This document shows, piece after piece, positions 15,600 through 38,493 of a stretch of DNA of 64,000 nt. The position numbers and the translations under genes are program-made. How positions within the stretch are numbered: position 1 is the stretch's first letter; the number at the start of each line of letters is the position of its first letter. The notes under the pieces were generated by a model that worked only from the letters and a program-made list of their open reading frames with translations, did not search any database and was not told the origin of the DNA. This DNA is from Pestalotiopsis fici W106-1 (lineage: Eukaryota; Ascomycota; Sordariomycetes; Amphisphaeriales; Sporocadaceae): contig NW_006917092.1 in assembly GCF_000516985.1 (NCBI RefSeq), forward strand, positions 6,389,888 to 6,453,887. The letters run 5' to 3'.

Positions 15600-17628
15600 C
15601 TAATCTGTACCTGTCAACTGTCCTTCGAATGAAGCCTCAACGATGGCTACAGTGTTCTTCTGGTCTTGATTTTGTCTGAAATGAACATCCTTAGCCTCGA
15701 ACCCAATTATAAAGAATGGAACACGGTATACTTACTCTCGCCTTCTATACACATACTTCATGAGTGTTACGCTTAAAATCGCAAGGCCGCCAAATAGTAT
15801 AAGAATCTGGTATCCATACTTGTACTTGGGTGCGTCTTGAGTCGGAAACAGAACCAATGGTACCCATAAGACCCAGGCATAGGACACCACGTTGGCAACA
15901 GCTACCAAGAGCTGTCGTAGGCTAGGATCGGCTGCGTTCAACTTGTTTCCCCAAGCCTGTTTCATTCATTGTTAATTAAATGTTCATTCAGAATAACCTG
16001 ATATTTTACGGCTGGTTTCTTGCTTACAATAAGCACTGGGGTGGCTGCAGATCCAGCGTATGAGAGGTAAAAGGCAAACATCAGAGCACCCTTGGGTATG
16101 CTCCAAACGGAAAGCAACACATTCGACAGTATCATCAATAGCTGGATGCTAATAATCAACCAATAGTGACAGCCGAAGCGATCGGCGAGCATGCCCCAAA
16201 AGATCGTCACAACGATATTGAGAGCGCTGCCGCCTGTTGGCATGACATTGATCTCAACGACGCTGTAGCCTGCTGCCTTGAGCCATAGATTAAAGTAACT
16301 GGTTGCCGTGTGACACGCAGCCACCATTCTACACGGTTTGGTCAGTTCAATCTCACCACATTCTCGCTCTTTTCCACTACTTACGTATATGGGATCACAA
16401 ATACCCAAATCTCCCAGCCTAAGAATATGCGTTTCATTTCCTTGGAGGTCAACTTTGTTTGAGCTCTTTGTCCGAGTCTCTCAATTCTCTCGATACCGTA
16501 TCGAATATGCTGGTGATTAGTCGTAAGCCTCCACTCCATTATCGATATGAATGATGTTATATATCTTACCTCTGGCGACCAGTAGAATGCCCTCGTGTTA
16601 TGAGGGAGATCAGGCAGGCCAAAGAAGCCCCATAGCGCTATAGGCAACGAGATGACTCCATCCATGATAAACAACCATCGCCACCCAGCAATACCTGCAT
16701 GCCCATTCATGCTTTCATACAGCCCGGCTTGTAGATAGCTACTAAACATTGAGGCGATCGACTCTATTTGCAAGAGAATGGCCAGTCGCTTTGTCAGTTC
16801 CTTGGGGCCATACCAGCCACCAAGCATGGCAATGTAACCAGGGAATGCGCAAGCCTCAAAAAGGCCGATAAAAAAGCGCAACGCGTACATCTAATTAGCT
16901 TTTGTGAGCATAAAAGGCTGCAGGTCTTGGATGGACTTCATTCTCACTGTTTGAATGTTCTTTGAGAAACCCATGCCGATGACCAAGCTTGACCAAATGA
17001 GCTCGCAGCAGGGCAACAGAACTGAGGATCGGAAGAACTTTAGTTGCGATAACTGCGCTGGCACGCTCCCAACCATGATCCCAAGACTAAACCAGGTGTT
17101 GAGCCAATTTCGTTCGTTACCATAAAGGCCCAGATCTTCCTGCATGCCGCTCACAAACGCATTGCCTACCGAAGAGAAATTAGTCAATATGACAGACTTC
17201 TTTTCGGGTAAACTAACGTCAAGGTTTGGAAACATACTATAATTGGTTTGGTCAAGGTATTTGATAAAATAACCTAGACAGACAGTTGGACTGCATTTTT
17301 AAAATTAGCCAAAATTTGTGGGTTTTACGGGACGGTTCGTCCCAATTCGTGTCGTTGCATTCGGATGTATATCATGGGCCAGTACCTACAAGAAAAAAAG
17401 ATCCAGCCTTTGCACGTATTGGCGATACTCCGGATCACCTTCAACAGAGTCCCAAATGAAGCTGAACACTCGGCGCCACCATGAAGCCGGTGGCTGAACA
17501 TTGTCCCTGGGTGCTGTATCAGTGACAACAGGCGACGGCAGCTGCTTGGGACTTTTCTGGAATGGTCTTTCTATAACAGCCGACGTTGCTAGAGAGGCTT
17601 CTACGTTTGGTGCCTTTTGATCCCGCAT
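15600..17628 (-). CDS. MFS carrier, anion:cation symporter (Dal5/allantoate permease-like)
   Basis: Eight exons join with perfect phase: 17628-17390, 17290-17238, 17165-16948, 16890-16570, 16509-16385, 16328-16028, 15956-15736 and 15675-15600, giving 517 aa. Family marks include YFIKYLDQTNYSNAFVSGM in the first helix and loop, NTWFSLGIMVGS, the loop WRWLFIMDGVISLP and MLADRFG. There are twelve predicted helices, with a Pro/Ser-rich cytosolic N-terminus and a charged C-terminus. Dal5-type carriers of fungi import organic anions such as allantoate, nicotinate-like acids or small peptides through the plasma membrane with protons. The gene is divergent from the solute-binding protein gene and heads the accessory cluster, where it could import the substrate or export a product. 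Confidence 0.88.
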
Positions 17629-18293
17629 AATGTAAGAAGTTTCAAGTTTAATGGTAGATGATTCAAAGTGTCACCACGACTAAGTCGGTTTGCCAGAAAA
17701 TTCCCAAATGGTATATCGTGGACCCTTCTCAATCTCAATCTTTGTGTCGCTGAGTATGTGTGCAATGATATGTTTGAGAGAGCGAAGGTATCTGGCCATC
17801 CAGATATCATTTGCGGTATCAGCTCGCGGTAGACAGGGTTTATACCTTAGAATACTGGAGTCTTGCCATGTTACGTGTGCTGAAATCCTTGCCCGTCTTT
17901 ACGAATTGCATCGTGATAGTAGTCATGCACCTATAGATAGCGAAGACCACCTCCGTGTGGGTGGGGTTCTGCAGACTGCACCTGTATGTTTTCGTGCTTC
18001 AGTTGATGTCGTGATTGTGCACCCTCGATTTCGTGCTGCAGATCCACAATTGTGCATTTAAAGGACCAGAAACACAACGTAAGTCGGCCGATAAGCTAGG
18101 GGAATACGTGCCGTGTAATGAGTAGATTCGGCTTCTTCGATCCGACAGTTATTAGTTGTTCTTGACATACTGTTTCTATTGACCGTATCGAGGGATGCCG
18201 ACCGTACCTGATGCCAACCAAAGATCACTACGGTCTCCTTCGCGAAGTTTTTTTTTTTTTTTCCCTTTAATGATTCTTTCCTTATAACAGAAA
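17629..18293. promoter_or_regulatory. Shared divergent promoter region (MFS / solute-binding protein)
   Basis: 665 bases between two divergently oriented start codons, containing a 15-base T-tract at 18248-18262 and CGG/CCG half-sites near 18129-18144. A sequence like a 3' splice site (ataacag) lies four bases before the ATG at 18294, so the solute-binding protein gene may have an intron in its leader. Confidence 0.45.
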
Positions 18294-19712
18294 ATGACAC
18301 CGGAAGCCACGCGCATCGTCTTGGAAAACGTGGACTTTCGTTTACCCACACAAGTCACAGACGACAATAGTGTCGTCGCTTTGAAAAGCCTGGTCTTTGA
18401 ACCGCTTGTTTGGTGGCACCCACATGGTTGCGTTAAGCCCGGCTTGTTTGCCAGTTGGGAGAGCTCACCAGATGCTCGCTCATGGCGATTCCACATACGC
18501 GACGAAGCCATCTTCCACGATGGCCTTCGATGCACGGCCGATGTGATTGTCACATATATCCTTGGGTTTCTTGATTCCCGCGATTATTTCGGCATGCCCT
18601 GGAGCTACAGTCGCTACTTCGCACATGCAAGGATTTCTGCCGAAAGTGAGACCACTGTTACCATCGAAACCCCGGCACCATTCCCTGATGTTCTTGAAGT
18701 GTTATGCGATTTCTGGCCATCACGAATCGATGCCGCTGATAAACCTGTGCTTGGCACCGGTCCTTATAGCGTCAGGCAATTTGAACGAAACGATGGAATC
18801 GGCAGAGCAACTTTGGAAGTATTGCGTCCGAGTAAATCGCACAAGTCGCATGTGATTGTCGCAACTCAAGAGCCCGATGGTGCCAAACGCCTCCAGTTAT
18901 TACGCGACGGCAAAGTGGACGTGGCACTGAATCTCGAGCGGACAAGGAACCTTCAGCTCCTCAACTTTGACTCGAGCCTCAACTGGGGCAAGACACACAG
19001 CACATTATCTGTGATTTATTACTTGAACTGTCCCGAAGGTGTGTTTTCTTCGCCCGAGTTGCGCCTCGCCGCCAATCTGGCGCTCGACAACGCTGCATTA
19101 GTGGATAAAGTCTATCAAGGACTCGCGACACCTTCTGCCAGCATCGTGAGCCCATTTCACCACGGCTTCGTAGAGGCAGCATTGCAGCCCATACCATATA
19201 ATCCAGACCAGGCTCGACGATTGGTGAAGAAGTTTGGTTCCGAGCAGAATTTGGAATTAAAACTGCGAAGTCCAACCTACATGCCCGAGCACGCGGAGCG
19301 CATCTCCCAATTCGTGGCATCGGCGTTGGAGTCAATAGGATTTAGTGTCCAGGTCGAAGTCGAGACGAATAGACCTGAGTACGCGAGGCAGATTGGGCTT
19401 CGAAAGGAAATTGGTGATTTGGCACTTTTCGACTCCACGCCCAACAGCACGTTCCGCGTCCTTGACGACAAAGTCTCGAGCGATGCACGCAATACCTGGT
19501 GGCTAGGATACCACGATGACGAGCTACAGAAAAGATTTCGCGCAGCGCGACAAACAATCGCAAACAAAGAAAGGGCTGAAGCTTATGGGAGTTGTTTGGC
19601 GAGATTGCACGAGAATCCTCCATGGTTATACATTGCACATCCAGATGTTGTATGGGCGAGCCGACCAGGGCTCTCTTTGAATATAGGACCCTCCGGTGTC
19701 TTGAGTCTCTAG
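18294..19712 (+). CDS. Bacterial-type extracellular solute-binding protein, family 5 (SBP_bac_5)
   Basis: Intronless, 472 aa. It follows the oligopeptide/nickel-binding protein pattern: an early LVFEPLVWWHPHG segment, PGLFASWESSPDARSWRF, FHIRDEAIFHDGLRCTADV, LGTGPYSVRQFE, then ELRLAANLALDNAALVD and a C-terminal lobe. In bacteria these proteins deliver peptides, nickel or sugars to an ABC importer, or form the sensor half of SgrR-type regulators. Here no ABC permease or ATPase is near. The N-terminus (MTPEATRIVLENVDF) has no signal peptide or lipobox, so the protein should be cytosolic, perhaps as a ligand-binding or carrier protein. It is divergent from the MFS carrier and convergent with the P450. 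Acquisition from bacteria is likely but not proven here. Confidence 0.8.
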   Translation: MTPEATRIVLENVDFRLPTQVTDDNSVVALKSLVFEPLVWWHPHGCVKPGLFASWESSPDARSWRFHIRDEAIFHDGLRCTADVIVTYILGFLDSRDYFGMPWSYSRYFAHARISAESETTVTIETPAPFPDVLEVLCDFWPSRIDAADKPVLGTGPYSVRQFERNDGIGRATLEVLRPSKSHKSHVIVATQEPDGAKRLQLLRDGKVDVALNLERTRNLQLLNFDSSLNWGKTHSTLSVIYYLNCPEGVFSSPELRLAANLALDNAALVDKVYQGLATPSASIVSPFHHGFVEAALQPIPYNPDQARRLVKKFGSEQNLELKLRSPTYMPEHAERISQFVASALESIGFSVQVEVETNRPEYARQIGLRKEIGDLALFDSTPNSTFRVLDDKVSSDARNTWWLGYHDDELQKRFRAARQTIANKERAEAYGSCLARLHENPPWLYIAHPDVVWASRPGLSLNIGPSGVLSL

Positions 19713-22806: not shown

Positions 22807-22949
22807 TAGTGGGGTAAATGGCCGACGGAGCTGTCGGATTGCCGATACTTCGTGTAAGTGGCAAGCCGTACAACTATATTATTCAAACTTGTTTGACAGA
22901 ATTGGCGGAAGAGATCATCCCATACTCATCAGCCTCTATGCATACAGCC

Positions 22950-24110
22950 ATGGGTTCTTCTTCAGATGCAATCGAGTCAAACGAGGGCCAGCCTCGAGCC
23001 TGGAAAGCACAAGATGTTAGCCGCGACACGTCCTGGGCGATGCGCCTTACTCCCAAACAAGCAGAAGGCTTTACCTCAGCTCTCAAACATGCGAAGCAAA
23101 TAGGCAAACCTCTTCTTGAGATGACTCGAGCAGACTACCCTTTGCCCGATACCTCACGCCATGCGCTCGAACAGGCCGTCGAAACAACACAAGGTCGGTG
23201 GGGTATGTGTCTTGTCAAGGGCTTCCCTACAGATGACTGGAGTGAGGCAGACATGCGCCTGGCTTACTGGGGCATGAGCCTTTACATGGGCGTGACCAGG
23301 CCACAGAATCGGGCTAGCGAGGTCATCAACGACGTACGAGACGCTGGCGGTAGTTACAAAGTCAAAGGAGGTCGTGGCTACAACACAAACGCTGAGCTTG
23401 ACTTTCACCAAGACTCGGCCGACGTGGTGTCTCTTCTCTGTAGGCGAACTGCAAAGTCTGGTGGTACCAGCAAGGTCTTGAGCTCCATTGCTTTGCGGGA
23501 CCGCGTCCAAGAACTGCGGCCCGATCTCATCCCGGTACTACAAGCCAACAATTGGTTTCATAGTTTCCAAGGCCATCAGGACCTTGCGCAGCCGGAGTTC
23601 TATCGCTGTCCAATCTTTGGAAACGATCCCGAACACTTTTGCGCACGCGCGAATCGCAAAAACACACTTGCGGCGCAGACTGACTTTGCCCGAGTCCCTC
23701 GTTTGACAGCACAGCAAACAGAAGCACTCGATCTCTTGGACTCCATCATGCCATCAGAGGAGTTTTGCTATTCCATGGAGTTGGAAAGGGGAGACATGCA
23801 GCTGCTAAACAGCTTTGTCACTCTTCATTCGAGAACTTCGTTTGAAGACTTTGAAAACCCTGATCAAAAACGCCATCTTATGCGTCTGTGGCTGTCCATT
23901 CCCATCTCGATGCCGCTTCCCGCAGAATGGGCAGAGTATTGGGGTGATGTCAGAGCTGGATCTGTCCGAGGTGGTTATAGAGGGACTGCAATCACATCCG
24001 AATTCTTGGAATATGAGAAGAGGCAATCAGAGGTCATGAAAATGGCATTTACTCCTTGGAAGCCCCTGATTTGCAAAGAGGACATGGCCGCAATATTACA
24101 GGCACCGTAA
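22950..24110 (+). CDS. TauD/TfdA-family Fe(II)/2-oxoglutarate dioxygenase
   Basis: Intronless. The start at 22950 gives 386 aa beginning MGSSSDAIES; in-frame ATGs at 22818 and 22938 would add 44 or 4 residues. I prefer 22950 because the shared operator lies only 12 bases before 22818 and because homologues begin shortly before the PRAWKAQDV segment. The iron triad is visible: H153 and D155 in DFHQDSAD and the distal H293 in LHSRTSFEDF, followed by the Arg of RHLMRLWLS that grips 2-oxoglutarate. Members hydroxylate or cleave small acids, sulfonates, phenoxy compounds or trimethyllysine-like amines. The fungal branch is broad and the substrate unknown. The gene is followed in tandem by the lyase gene. 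Confidence 0.87.
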   Translation: MGSSSDAIESNEGQPRAWKAQDVSRDTSWAMRLTPKQAEGFTSALKHAKQIGKPLLEMTRADYPLPDTSRHALEQAVETTQGRWGMCLVKGFPTDDWSEADMRLAYWGMSLYMGVTRPQNRASEVINDVRDAGGSYKVKGGRGYNTNAELDFHQDSADVVSLLCRRTAKSGGTSKVLSSIALRDRVQELRPDLIPVLQANNWFHSFQGHQDLAQPEFYRCPIFGNDPEHFCARANRKNTLAAQTDFARVPRLTAQQTEALDLLDSIMPSEEFCYSMELERGDMQLLNSFVTLHSRTSFEDFENPDQKRHLMRLWLSIPISMPLPAEWAEYWGDVRAGSVRGGYRGTAITSEFLEYEKRQSEVMKMAFTPWKPLICKEDMAAILQAP

Positions 24111-25939: not shown

Positions 25940-26630
25940 GAGGATGGAGAGAAAATTCACCAATAAATCGCCCCAGGACTCAGGCCTGATGCGGCACAGG
26001 CTGCGAATACCTGATACATCAGGTATCTAGGCAGGCAGTTAAGTAGTCATCTCGATTTTCACTAAATTGACTAGAAATATGAAGGGAAAAGAGAATTTGG
26101 AATGGTTGTGAGTTCTTCGAGTCGCCGGCGACATGGACTCTGATGAACCGATTTGCGGCGGATACACACCAATTTTACTGGGGCATAACGTGTTCGTCTG
26201 GGGAGGGAGGTTAACGGTTAGCCTTAATGGTTCCTCACCGCCGCTACGCCCCATTCCCGCAGCACCTAAGCCGCTGCCTAAGCCACCCAGATCTTCGCAG
26301 TCCAGCGACCTTTCTAGGGCGATATGACTTGCAACCTTGGAAGTTGATCTACCGCCGGGTGAGTCAAGCGCCGACTGCGATCCACCCAAAACAGACCTCA
26401 TTCAATGAAAATCAACCTTATTCTGTAACAGAGGATATAATAAGAACAACACTACGAGTTGCCATGATGTTTTTCGTGATATTAGCCTTTCTCGGATTAT
26501 GCGCAGCGAATTGGCTACACTCGCTCCTTGCTTGAAAAAGTTCTCTCATTTAAATTCCGACACAAAAAGCACCCGAGTCCATCGACCATATTCACCAGCC
26601 AGTTCAAAGTGGCCAAACCTCAACACCAGC
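25940..26630. other. Intergenic region and vWA-RBR promoter
   Basis: No separate gene. A TATA-like gatataataag lies near 26433. An in-frame ATG at 26499 would extend the next gene by 44 residues, but that extension resembles no domain. Confidence 0.45.
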
Positions 26631-29600
26631 ATGGCCGAAGCAACATCGTCGTCGCAGGTCTATGACTTGTTGATCCTGACAGATGCAACATCTTCAATGG
26701 ACGAATACCTGCACGCTCTAAACCAGTCACTGCCAAAAATCATCTCCATTTCCGCTCTGACTGGCGCCTTTGCCCGTATAGGTGTTATGGCGTACAGAGA
26801 CTATTGCCGCCCAGGTCTTTTAGAATGGTCCGGGTGGTTTGGCCGGGACGGCGACATTGGTCGAGATGAGCTGCTGCACTTCATGCGCAGTGTACGTGCT
26901 CAGGATGGCGGCGACTGGCCAGAAGCAACAAAGACAGGTCTGGCATCGGCCTATTCAGTCATGCGCGAGGATGCTAAAACCTTGGTGCTACTCTACGCTG
27001 ATGCGCCGCCGCATATGGGCGGCTGGGACAACGGTCCAAATTACAAGAAGGAAATCGAGTACCTGACGGCAGAAGGGTGCAAGCTGAGCCCTTCGGCCGG
27101 ACTGTTTGCAGACTGGGTTTCGGCTGCCCGTACACTTAATGGGACGGGGCACGGCGCGAAGCAGGCTCAAATATTCTCGATTGTCTGCAGCCATACGAAT
27201 GAAGCGTTCGGTCCGTTCATGTACATGTCTCATCAGACAAAGGGTACATGTATTCAGATGAAGTCGCCCGATTCGCCGTTGATCTCGAAGCTCACCATGT
27301 CGGTGCTTCTGGCTTGGATGGGAGTCAAGAAGGCGGGTGAGCCTGAAGAAACGTTTGATGATGCATTCAATCTATGTTACAACAATCTCGACGATATCGA
27401 TGCCTTGGAAAATGAAAAGGACCCAAAAGCGGACATATATTTTGTTCTCCAGCGGTCCCAGGTAGAGGTCTTTAGATCTAATATCTGTCAAAATACACTG
27501 TCGGACGAAAAGCAGCTCCGTGCAATCATTACGCCGCGAGACATTCCTGTTACTGATTTCGCCAAGCGCTATGTAAGCGACGAGGACTACCGGAAGATCG
27601 TTGTCGAAAATCTGAGCAAGATTATTCGCGAAGACGTATCTTCTATTACCCTTAATCCCGTATTCGGGGCTCTTTGGCGAGCGGTTTGCAATGACCGGAG
27701 GAACGAGGCACGGAACGTTCTCATTGCAGATCTGGGAGTAAGCATCGCGAACATGGGATCATCGAGTGAAAAGTCAAATTTGCAGACTTGGCTTGCAGAG
27801 TCTTACAATTATGCGGCCGAAATTGCTGCAATGATTGAAGAAGTTCCGCTGGCAGAACGTTTCCCGTGCGTTTTTCTCGATCCAACACAGCATTGGCATC
27901 TCCATCGAAGTGAAGACGGAGATGAAGACGATCAAAAGGATGGTACCATTACGTCTTTTACTTGTAGTCAACTGCTGGAAATCGGGAGGTCATGCGATTC
28001 CAAGATACTGCGCCGTTTGGGTACGGTCCTCACCAGACTGACGTATGTCACGACTCCTGAGGAGCTGCCTAATCATGTCATGGGCATGAAAGATGATGAG
28101 CTTCCACGAATCCCAATCGCGCTGGCCAAACAGCAACATAACAGGGTATTCTGGAAGATTCTTCTTCACCTTGTTGTTCCAGGAATTAAGCTAGGTGCCC
28201 GACCAGCAGCGTTGCTCGCGGCGCTGAGTATTCGCATGGGCATGAGACCACTCATGAATGCAGCCGACTATGAGATGGCCGCCTGGAAAGACAAGTGGAA
28301 TAACATCAATGCCTCAGAGACTTGGAATGCCGACTGTCTGGCACTCATATTAGATGCTGACAAGAGTTTCGAAGCAAGGCGCCGTGTTCTAGACGTGCCT
28401 CAAGAACTTCAAGAAGCCAGTTTCCTCAGCACTGAGGATAGACACCTATTCGAGACGCTCGTCGACTATGGCATGTTAATGGCAAATCTTAACACGACTC
28501 TCACGGCAAAAATTGGATGGAAGCCAACAATGTCAAAGGTTCCGATTGGACCCCTCGTGGTGTGCAAGGCTTGTCACTTCCCTCGTTCGGTCAGCATGAT
28601 GGCCCACAAAGGCATATGCGGCAAATGCATCACACCGAAGGCGCAATACGTTTACGGCGTCACCAAAGCCGAGTCCATTCTCATGAGTGTGAGTCAAGGG
28701 ACCACCGAGTCCCATGAAGCCTCGTTTGTCGAGTGTAGAATCATTACGTGCCGAGCCCAGTACGTTGTGTACAACGTAGATGGCCTAAAAGTGCATCCCA
28801 AGTGCTACTACTGTCGCTTTGTCGGGACTGATCGAGCTCCATGGGTGGAATGTCGCAAATGCCTAAATCGGATGATATGGCCTCACGAGTACCGCCCGCT
28901 TGATCAGGATGTCGCTCAGAATTTTCTCTGCTCAGCATGTAACAGTGGCCGGGCCACCATTGTCGATTTCGAGATAACGCTGGCGGACCTATGCAAAGAG
29001 AATGGAGATAAATGGTTACTCCGCCACGATGGAAAATTGGAGAAGCCCTTCGAAGACCGTTCACTGTTCAAGACCGTGTTAGAAGCTGGCATCGATATAT
29101 TTGCTGAGCATGTCGAAGTCTTGCCGCAATCCAATACCGATCTGAGGATCGATGGAAAGATCATTCATAATGCGGCAGAGCTCAAGTCCGCATTGACCAG
29201 CTGGATCAAGTCCCGTCGTACCGAGGCCGGATTGTGCAATCTCTGTTTCTCGAACTTCAGAAAGAGCACTCTTCGATCAGCATGCGGACGGTCTGGGTGC
29301 GGCCAGAGGATATGCCGCGACTGCAAGGCTTCTTGGTACAGTATGAATTCCCGTGGTCGAATTATCAATACCGCAGCCCTCTGTTGCCCATTTTGCAGAC
29401 GGGTACCGTCGCCTCGCGCTGTACCAAAGTCCGATCTTGTCTTCCTTGGGAACTTGAAGACCGCTGTTGAAGACTCAGGGGCGTGGATATATGCGTGGTG
29501 TTGCGCCTGCAGCTTCGCAGAGAGGATGATGGAGCGTGTCTGTGCTCAAGGGGCTCCGCCCGAAGTCCGGGACTGGGAGTGTGAAGACTGCAGCGCATTT

Positions 29601-29849
29601 AGGACGCATTCAAATGAGAGCTTGCTACGGCAGGCCATCATCCGTCACTGTCCGAGGTGCGATGTGGCCACCAAGAAATTGCGCGGATTTGACCATATCT
29701 CTTGTGGGTGTGGAGCACATTGGTGCTTTTTTTGTTGCAGGCAGCTCCCCTTAGATGATATATACCGGCATATGGCGAATGTGCACGGTGGCCTTTATGA
29801 CATACTCGGTGCTGAAGATGACGACGACGTCGAGATGGATTTGGATTGA
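26631..29849 (+). CDS. vWA-domain and RBR-type zinc-finger protein (putative E3 ubiquitin ligase)
   Basis: Intronless, 1072 aa from the ATG at 26631. The N-terminal 230 residues form a von Willebrand A fold with a MIDAS-like DATSSM motif (LILTDATSSMDEY) and a VMAYRDY segment. A long helical middle follows. The C-terminal 400 residues hold several Cys pairs: VCKACHF, GICGKC, CYYC, CRKC and CSAC. They end in a RING-IBR-RING arrangement: CNLCF to CPFCRR, then WCCAC to CEDC, then CPRCDVATKKLRGFDHISC to CFFC. Cys 1025 in DHISC sits where RBR ligases carry the catalytic Cys. It could recognise a client through the vWA domain and ubiquitinate it. The pairing is known in fungi, but its targets are not. 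Confidence 0.82.
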   Translation: MAEATSSSQVYDLLILTDATSSMDEYLHALNQSLPKIISISALTGAFARIGVMAYRDYCRPGLLEWSGWFGRDGDIGRDELLHFMRSVRAQDGGDWPEATKTGLASAYSVMREDAKTLVLLYADAPPHMGGWDNGPNYKKEIEYLTAEGCKLSPSAGLFADWVSAARTLNGTGHGAKQAQIFSIVCSHTNEAFGPFMYMSHQTKGTCIQMKSPDSPLISKLTMSVLLAWMGVKKAGEPEETFDDAFNLCYNNLDDIDALENEKDPKADIYFVLQRSQVEVFRSNICQNTLSDEKQLRAIITPRDIPVTDFAKRYVSDEDYRKIVVENLSKIIREDVSSITLNPVFGALWRAVCNDRRNEARNVLIADLGVSIANMGSSSEKSNLQTWLAESYNYAAEIAAMIEEVPLAERFPCVFLDPTQHWHLHRSEDGDEDDQKDGTITSFTCSQLLEIGRSCDSKILRRLGTVLTRLTYVTTPEELPNHVMGMKDDELPRIPIALAKQQHNRVFWKILLHLVVPGIKLGARPAALLAALSIRMGMRPLMNAADYEMAAWKDKWNNINASETWNADCLALILDADKSFEARRRVLDVPQELQEASFLSTEDRHLFETLVDYGMLMANLNTTLTAKIGWKPTMSKVPIGPLVVCKACHFPRSVSMMAHKGICGKCITPKAQYVYGVTKAESILMSVSQGTTESHEASFVECRIITCRAQYVVYNVDGLKVHPKCYYCRFVGTDRAPWVECRKCLNRMIWPHEYRPLDQDVAQNFLCSACNSGRATIVDFEITLADLCKENGDKWLLRHDGKLEKPFEDRSLFKTVLEAGIDIFAEHVEVLPQSNTDLRIDGKIIHNAAELKSALTSWIKSRRTEAGLCNLCFSNFRKSTLRSACGRSGCGQRICRDCKASWYSMNSRGRIINTAALCCPFCRRVPSPRAVPKSDLVFLGNLKTAVEDSGAWIYAWCCACSFAERMMERVCAQGAPPEVRDWECEDCSAFRTHSNESLLRQAIIRHCPRCDVATKKLRGFDHISCGCGAHWCFFCCRQLPLDDIYRHMANVHGGLYDILGAEDDDDVEMDLD

Positions 29850-37401: not shown

Positions 37402-38493
37402 TCATGCGCCCACTGCCGATTCGATGATGGCGAATTTGTCCTTCTCCGAATCGAGGACCGCTAATGCATCATAGGGCAAGGTGACCATCGGCGTGGTGTG
37501 TCCGAAATCAACGCCAAACAAGATGGGAAACGGTTTTTTGGCCAACGGTCCTTCACACAAAAGTCCAGTGATTGCGCCCGTATACTCTGCTATAAGCTCG
37601 GGCGTATCATAGCCGTACGGTCGTCCCACCACCAGGCCAGCCGCGTCCTCAAAGACGCCGTGTGCAATCAGGTCGGCTACTCCAGCCTGAACTCTGTGAA
37701 GTGGGTTGCCGTAATTCTCATCATCGCCCGAGGCTGTTTCGAGAAACACTATCCTGCCACGCCAATCTGGTGAGATGGCTCGAACGCCCCCGAGACGCGC
37801 CATGACTGTCAAGCAGCCCCCAAACAGCCGACCATGCCCCTTACCTTGCCGCAACCATCTCCACCCCGGTGTTGCGCTGAGTCGTGGTGTCGCCACGGAA
37901 CTGGGTTCCTTGAACATGGCGGCCATATCAGGCGCGTAGGTCACAGATCGCGCAACATCTCCAATCGGCTGGGTGTCTGCAATGGTGCGGAAGAGATGTT
38001 TCTCAACAAAGGCAAGCGGAGAGGCCTCGTGGTCAGCATCGGCGGCCTTGGAAGCACCTAGCTCCGGAATAGCGCCCGGGCCGTAAAAGGTGCGCAGTCC
38101 AGCGATGGCATGAAGGAACCAATGCAAACCGGTAATGTCAGAATAACCGACAACGATCTTGGGATCGGCGCGGATAGCCTTGTGGAGCTCCGTATCAGCA
38201 AGAAGGCTGGGTAGCAGCTCCGTGAACGACGGTCCGCCAATAGTGCAAATGATTGCCGAGATGGACGGGTCAGTAAATGCGGTGCGGATTTCGGACAGGC
38301 GATTGGCTATCGACGATTGAATGCCGGAATCTGGTCCCAAGTATATTTCGCGAATTTTGTAACCCTTTGCGACTAGGAGAGCAGTTGCCCGCTCCATGGC
38401 AGCAGGAATAACATCATTAAGCCGTGCAGACGGCGAAATGAAAGCTATTGTTGCGCCGGGCTTAAGTGCTTTAGGGACAATGGCCGAAGGCAT
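37402..38493 (-). CDS. S66-family peptidase (LD-carboxypeptidase/MccF-like)
   Basis: Intronless, 363 aa. The family marks are the early GATIAFISPSARL, the pre-nucleophile IGGPSF, the nucleophile loop GYSDIT with S118, the FLETASGD segment with the candidate Glu, and DFGHTTP with the candidate His near the C-terminus. In bacteria, S66 enzymes either trim murein tetrapeptides or, as in MccF, cut the amide bond of microcin C-like nucleotide antibiotics. Fungi lack murein, so a detoxifying or peptide-salvage role is more likely, but this is inference. No signal peptide, so cytosolic. The neighbouring protease gene converges on it with a 305 bp gap. Confidence 0.88.
   Translation of the reverse strand: MPSAIVPKALKPGATIAFISPSARLNDVIPAAMERATALLVAKGYKIREIYLGPDSGIQSSIANRLSEIRTAFTDPSISAIICTIGGPSFTELLPSLLADTELHKAIRADPKIVVGYSDITGLHWFLHAIAGLRTFYGPGAIPELGASKAADADHEASPLAFVEKHLFRTIADTQPIGDVARSVTYAPDMAAMFKEPSSVATPRLSATPGWRWLRQGKGHGRLFGGCLTVMARLGGVRAISPDWRGRIVFLETASGDDENYGNPLHRVQAGVADLIAHGVFEDAAGLVVGRPYGYDTPELIAEYTGAITGLLCEGPLAKKPFPILFGVDFGHTTPMVTLPYDALAVLDSEKDKFAIIESAVGA

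Follow-up and report, generated by a model that had tools for sequence, protein, structure and literature searches.

Solute-binding proteins (SBPs) are regarded as acting outside the cytoplasmic membrane, and one gene in the 64,000-nucleotide stretch of Pestalotiopsis fici DNA analysed here (the window) encodes a protein of this bacterial kind in an ascomycete. The questions raised by this locus are what such a protein does in a fungus, and whether its leaderless state arose there or was inherited.

The gene and its surroundings

The gene was identified as a full-length, intronless SBP_bac_5 gene, as the initial annotation had described it (Table 1). Its product matched the PF00496 profile with an E-value of 6.8e-45 and 154.2 bits against a cut-off of 32.4, no other domain of the protein exceeding its cut-off, and fold comparison, within the list of folds compared, returned the two-lobed family-5 fold over the full length.

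Table 1. Features of the window and of the distant bacterial loci (window positions unless a locus is named; residue numbers refer to the window protein).
Feature	Coordinates	Strand	Remarks
Neighbouring MFS carrier	15962..17298	-	at least 3 ORFs (probable introns), divergent from SBP gene
Upstream ORF, mechanically joinable as leader exon	17690..18061	+	judged outside SBP protein
Leaderless SBP_bac_5 gene	18294..19712	+	one exon, uninterrupted 472-codon frame, 472 aa
VSPFHHG, residues 285-291	19146..19166	+	clade-conserved; invariant H289
Clade motif, residues 379-393 (FDSTPNSTFRVLDDK)	19428..19472	+	kept across leaderless proteins
WWxG, residues 402-405	19497..19508	+	second signature part; W402, W403, G405 each 0/11 secreted SBPs
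Neighbouring cytochrome P450	19969..21323	-	split, at least 2 ORFs; PF00067 in both pieces
Constant positions, first half of list			T22, D23, W64, G100, A211, V285, S286, P287, H289, G291, P327, P331, A334
Constant positions, second half of list			R360, F379, S381, P383, S385, R388, K393, W402, W403, G405, P442, W444
Distant leaderless gene, L077	4998-6440		
Distant leaderless gene, L076	5004-6473		
Distant leaderless gene, L084	5998-7449		
Distant leaderless gene, L083	from about 6001		

In the adjoining MFS carrier, PF07690 was recognised in all three pieces and exceeded its cut-off in one. Elsewhere in the window, a single-frame TauD-family dioxygenase gene (22818-24110, plus strand) lies close to the SBP gene, and a 1146-codon frame (26409-29849, plus strand) yielded no more than a weak, sub-cut-off match to von Willebrand A. 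A single-frame gene on the minus strand (37402-38493) has both LD-carboxypeptidase domains (Peptidase_S66), a type known mainly from bacteria, and is possibly another acquired gene.

The 51.7 Mb genome yielded no second SBP_bac_5 gene and 0 matches to the PF00528 permease (controls 14/14), in agreement with the earlier statement that an ABC importer is missing. The fungus differs in this from the alphaproteobacterial operons described below, and their VOC and SUMF1/EgtB-like genes, searched for without a positive control, also gave 0 matches each and are likely missing; rhodanese reached only 34%. ErtD-like amidohydrolases were represented by seven stretches, all below cut-off, and likewise in 14/14 control genomes. 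Two single-frame amidohydrolases of the genome (L087, C2:5727176-5728567, and L088, C12:1718960-1720372) matched the ErtD model below its cut-off.

Absence of a leader in fungi and bacteria

Neither a signal peptide nor a lipobox was recognised in the window protein from hydrophobicity and its conserved start. The fungal protein and the 180 of 201 homologues with the usual start had no leader, the highest 11-residue mean being 1.35. The same was seen in bacteria: with every start codon considered up to 80 codons upstream, no start gave a clear leader in 69 of the 71 loci described below, the other two being partial, and in 69/69 loci holding the 5′ end a start codon was present at most 12 codons from the start of the fungal match. 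When the most hydrophobic 11-residue stretch among residues 1-35 was taken for each of these 69 loci, its mean reached 1.96 at most (median 1.21), against 1.07 to 3.44 for eight secreted SBPs from the same loci, seven of which were above 2.0 (2.05 to 3.44; the value of 1.07 belongs to L043, its start called by longest ORF), hydrophobicity being a crude leader test in which the secreted and leaderless ranges overlap.

As a clear leader is missing from the bacterial relatives as well, the leaderless state of the fungal protein was most likely inherited from its bacterial kin, and the leader was most likely lost in bacteria, not in the fungus; the view that a cytosolic form arose after the transfer is thereby not supported. 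A single loss of the leader seems to lie behind the leaderless clade. With no leader and no importer permease found, the window protein is very probably cytosolic, the place assigned to it in the initial annotation, which had likewise noted the lack of a secretion signal.

A spliced upstream exon was considered as a source of a leader. Seven of the 87 mechanical joins scanned have a strong donor, all from one ORF stretch (Table 1), and a 5-residue word of this ORF was common only to P0168 and P0178 among the 321 homologues in the matches listed; the joins are only mechanical, and the ORF was judged not to be part of the protein. A 5′ UTR intron upstream of the SBP gene is possible.

Distribution in fungi

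The first homologue search returned 335 proteins at E ≤0.001 among 7995 candidates scored, and the best 120 of the 335 were examined by name. Among the matches listed, most were Pezizomycotina by source name and many others were metagenome proteins; the closest fungal homologues were those of Truncatella (74%) and a Xylariales isolate (73%), followed by Colletotrichum, Fusarium, Aspergillus, Talaromyces, Didymella, Zasmidium and Cladosporium, with Monilinia and Cudoniella at about 50%. The second search, with the Cudoniella protein as query, gave 499 proteins (best 120 of 499 examined), and added, among the matches listed, more Leotiomycetes together with Agrobacterium, Rhizobium and Neorhizobium proteins about 58-64% identical to the query. 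One species each of Sordariomycetes, Eurotiomycetes, Dothideomycetes and Leotiomycetes was looked up, which confirmed the four classes; their homologues are full length, ca. 470 aa. The window gene is not a recent oddity of P. fici. The possibility of an old, fungus-wide family, held open in the initial annotation as the contrary outcome, stood in part: the family is an older one with members in four ascomycete classes, but of bacterial type. Several fungal members are named glutathione-binding GsiB, nickel-binding or dipeptide transport periplasmic component, names carried over from bacteria.

In a tree of all 38 fungal rows, the window protein included (SH-aLRT support only), the classes, which we presume from the genus names, were mixed, Sordariomycetes needing 7 changes and Eurotiomycetes 3. 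The protein of Penicillium taxi (P0004) was placed within the window protein's group of four (99), with Truncatella and the Xylariales isolate. This placement, unlike that of the other Eurotiomycetes, suggests a fungus-to-fungus transfer.

Bacterial loci and their neighbouring genes

A pattern-based scan of genome contigs resulted in 71 bacterial loci, most of them from Alphaproteobacteria, while Pseudomonas, Betaproteobacteria, Chloroflexi and Trueperaceae each appear in the title of one locus; one of the two scan patterns is part of the clade motif, so that the loci were partly chosen for it. Identity of the bacterial relatives to the window protein reached 52% at most. In bacteria the leaderless gene is mostly a second SBP gene beside that of the importer's own secreted SBP, among catabolic enzymes, and its product is annotated only as "ABC transporter substrate-binding protein".

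Neighbours were counted by tblastn with queries from the Rhizobium locus L017, plus the L002 ATPase, the neighbour domains having been confirmed in both loci; the loci were cut at 8 kb, and outer genes are therefore undercounted. Importer genes were frequent, with DppB in 57/71, DppC in 56/71 and the secreted SBP in 57/71 loci (66 matches less 9 weak matches of the leaderless gene itself), as were genes for a VOC protein (57/71), rhodanese (55/71), SUMF1/EgtB-like protein (49/71), Asp/Glu racemase (41/71) and fused ATPase (38/71); an amidohydrolase was identified in 16/71 loci, two of the matches being weak (25-26% identical). In the Dpp-type operons only a few bases separate the start of the leaderless gene from the permease gene, so that the protein may have a transport role in bacteria. 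The gene for the SUMF1/EgtB-like protein (L017 9781-11832, the same gene in 49/71 loci) encodes about 680-720 aa, with the SUMF1/EgtB-like domain at the C-terminus and a long N-terminal part giving only a weak P-loop match. A Shinella leaderless copy (L066, from about 7986) has a shortened frame of 371 codons from the match start.

Fourteen of the 71 loci were without DppB. Two of these (L070, L072) are short fragments, and in the remaining 12, from Roseomonas-like or related bacteria, no Dpp-type importer was present within the locus DNA examined. The gene just upstream of the leaderless gene codes for a TTT receptor in L033, L038 and L046 (L033 7034-8005; L046 7010-7984), and the TRAP DctM gene is likewise just upstream in L038 and L040. 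Urea ABC genes over cut-off, UrtB in L038 and UrtB, UrtC and UrtE in L040, are located downstream on the other strand, the region with the transporter genes on both sides spanning 5542-13469 in L038 and 5547-13454 in L040. Further neighbours were an AbrB-family protein (L057), a shikimate dehydrogenase (L048), and in L047 a rhodanese-domain protein and a polysaccharide-deacetylase-family protein, which resembles PuuE and lies far below the PuuE model cut-off. PatB-type C-S lyases over cut-off were present in L035 and L067. The amidohydrolase of L017 was nearest to NCBIfam ErtD (ergothioneine utilisation, hydantoin-5-propionate amidohydrolase), with 497 bits against a cut-off of 600. This one neighbour provides the ergothioneine/hydantoin lead, a lead from profile similarity and not an assignment.

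A second, distant set of leaderless proteins was found when the window protein was searched by tblastn against plasmids, giving 14 records at E ≤1e-40, of which the six weakest (29-32% identity) hold another leaderless protein of this kind. Four of these six were fetched, and three annotated (Table 1). At the three annotated loci the leaderless gene directly follows the second ATP-binding gene, in operons that encode a secreted SBP of their own together with a DHDPS-family protein and one or two amidohydrolases, and in two of the three also an Asp/Glu racemase. The Sulfitobacter member had 657 relatives, the best 120 of which were examined; the matches listed include Sulfitobacter and other Rhodobacterales, and the maximum 11-residue mean over residues 1-30 did not exceed 1.73 in any of these 120 (median 1.18). 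The secreted SBP of L084 fell with GsiB, DppA and NikA (96/88, long branches) and apart from its counterparts in the near set; at this one distant locus the leaderless protein seems to have been retained through a change of the import part.

Clade-specific motif and constant residues

On the basis of alignments, the window protein has both parts of the signature of the leaderless clade, FDSxP..R.L..K and WWxG. Among the matches listed, the motif FDS.P.[ST]T[FY]R[VIL]L..K was present in 310/321 leaderless proteins (190/201 near, 120/120 distant), WWxG in 315/321 (195/201 near, 120/120 distant), and both together in 308/321, against 0/12 comparison sequences (11 secreted SBPs and SgrR) for either part. 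In a 39-row set, 25 positions were constant in the leaderless proteins, i.e. with at most one exception among the 23 near sequences and none among the 4 distant ones, and kept in less than 30% of the 11 secreted SBPs, and 49 positions were invariant across 62 fungal and bacterial sequences.

In DppA, R383 and D436 hold the dipeptide and also touch the scoop loop of DppB, according to PMC12136057. Residues P327-P331 and F379-P383 of the window protein align at the two DppA segments carrying these anchors, but in this sequence alignment the anchors themselves are not kept, M330 standing opposite R383 and a gap opposite D436; where DppA has its peptide anchors, the leaderless clade thus shows constant residues of its own. 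A DppA-like peptide binding via the conserved R325 and D380 was considered and rejected, as a wider alignment puts neither residue on the DppA anchors.

Phylogeny and origin

The tree pool comprised 68/71 bacterial loci, leaving out L066 (shortened frame), L070 and L072 (partial), and the 100-row tree was built from 44/68 of these, 23/38 fungal rows (the window protein being in the pool) and 11/18 metagenome rows. The fungal and metagenome rows together with P0164 and P0169, metagenome proteins inside the fungal clade, formed one clade (100/100), which grouped with Rhizobiaceae and one Alsobacter bin (99/93), the next group being Devosia-Aquamicrobium-Microvirga (96/89). The 39-row tree united the near and distant leaderless proteins in a single clade (99/98) that excluded DppA, NikA, GsiB and the secreted SBPs belonging to the operons; outgroup branches in this tree are long, and SgrR, the root, has a very long branch, its placement saying little.

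AU tests did not reject a topology that separates all bacterial members, as a single clade, from the fungi, either with 27 rows and a distant leaderless root (p 0.267) or with 100 rows and a very distant secreted-SBP root (p 0.4, with P0164 and P0169 outside the bacterial set), and thus the nesting beside Rhizobiaceae, and with it the donor, is favoured but not required. A bacterial origin of the window gene, in accord with the bacterial type first attributed to the protein, is very likely, given that the outgroup is bacterial and that the family is spread among bacteria, where its genes stand in operons. A single transfer would have brought an ancestral ascomycete this one gene of the operon, the donor being an alphaproteobacterium that perhaps stood near Rhizobiaceae; the gene would then have spread by descent and loss, probably with some fungus-to-fungus transfer. 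The fungal protein seems to be an inherited intracellular version of a bacterial protein type.

Discussion

The best explanation of the whole, at a probability of roughly 55%, is a leaderless, probably cytosolic Venus-flytrap protein with the family-5 SBP fold, of bacterial descent and with a role around a metabolite. Within the cell, the two lobes would close around a small polar metabolite, held by the constant residues of the clade and not by DppA peptide anchors, and the protein would store, hand on or sense this metabolite, or convert it, with no importer to serve in the fungus. The varying type of the neighbouring transporter and the differing secreted SBP of L084 argue for a metabolic part after entry, not for transport, and the presence of the gene in a fungus without an importer permease argues that the protein can act without one. 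By analogy with the bacterial neighbours, i.e. a hydantoinase-like amidohydrolase, Asp/Glu/hydantoin racemase, rhodanese, VOC and SUMF1/EgtB-like proteins, PatB C-S lyase at two loci and, near two others, urea ABC genes, an N- or S-containing amino-acid derivative, e.g. a hydantoin or thiohydantoin acid, may tentatively be named as the likeliest ligand.

With the family 5 SBPs DppA, NikA, GsiB and AgaA the window protein shares PF00496 and the full-length fold, but it differs from them in the missing leader, the missing fungal permease and its own motif. It is most like the alphaproteobacterial leaderless second SBP of Dpp-type operons, having the clade, the motif and the lack of a clear leader in common. 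The roles listed for SBPs in the initial annotation, secreted or as in SgrR, hold for the known proteins and omit this leaderless bacterial clade. Chorismate dehydratase MqnA and THI5/NMT1, soluble proteins of other classes, also have a periplasmic-binding fold, work in the cytosol and became catalysts.

A comparable turn of the leaderless clade into a catalyst of a catabolic step is possible, if on the unlikely side. The 25 clade-specific constants (D23, H289, R360, S381, R388 and K393 among them), kept at ca. 30% identity, speak for it, as do the catabolic gene company though the transporter type varies and the presence of the gene in fungi without at least the permeases; the constant residues could, however, serve a strictly conserved ligand. 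More doubtful is the fuller version, an unrecognised intracellular SBP-fold enzyme family which would have arisen from an importer SBP in bacterial hydantoin/thiol-breakdown operons and of which filamentous fungi took and kept the enzyme alone. A cytosolic sensor acting on regulation via a partner protein has a precedent in SgrR, a cytosolic protein with an SBP_bac_5 domain, but its N-terminal DNA-binding domain was not found in the window protein, in which the first strand of the structure model is formed by residues 5-10 and leaves no room for one; this is improbable.

The initial annotation had pictured an ordinary secreted SBP that was acquired, lost its leader in the fungus and took up a role with the MFS carrier. 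The adjacency of the two genes in one genome, the missing leader and the missing importer permease agree with such a course, which becomes very improbable when the bacterial relatives are without a clear leader and the leaderless proteins form one clade. A neutral passenger gene without function in fungi would fit the mixed classes of the fungal tree, as losses or transfers give, but hardly the invariant positions of the 62 sequences and the full-length proteins from four classes, and is scarcely credible.

No description of the leaderless clade was found among the papers listed in the literature searches; the fungal transfer survey PMC11708051 may hold the SBP family in its tables. If the preferred reading of a cytosolic metabolite-binding protein is true, the leaderless clade would show a route from a transport protein to an intracellular metabolic protein, on the basis of a leader seemingly lost once, a motif kept over bacteria and fungi, and persistence without the importer. 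Annotations could be corrected as well, since for fungal proteins with neither leader nor importer the names referring to dipeptide, glutathione or nickel binding are unlikely to fit.
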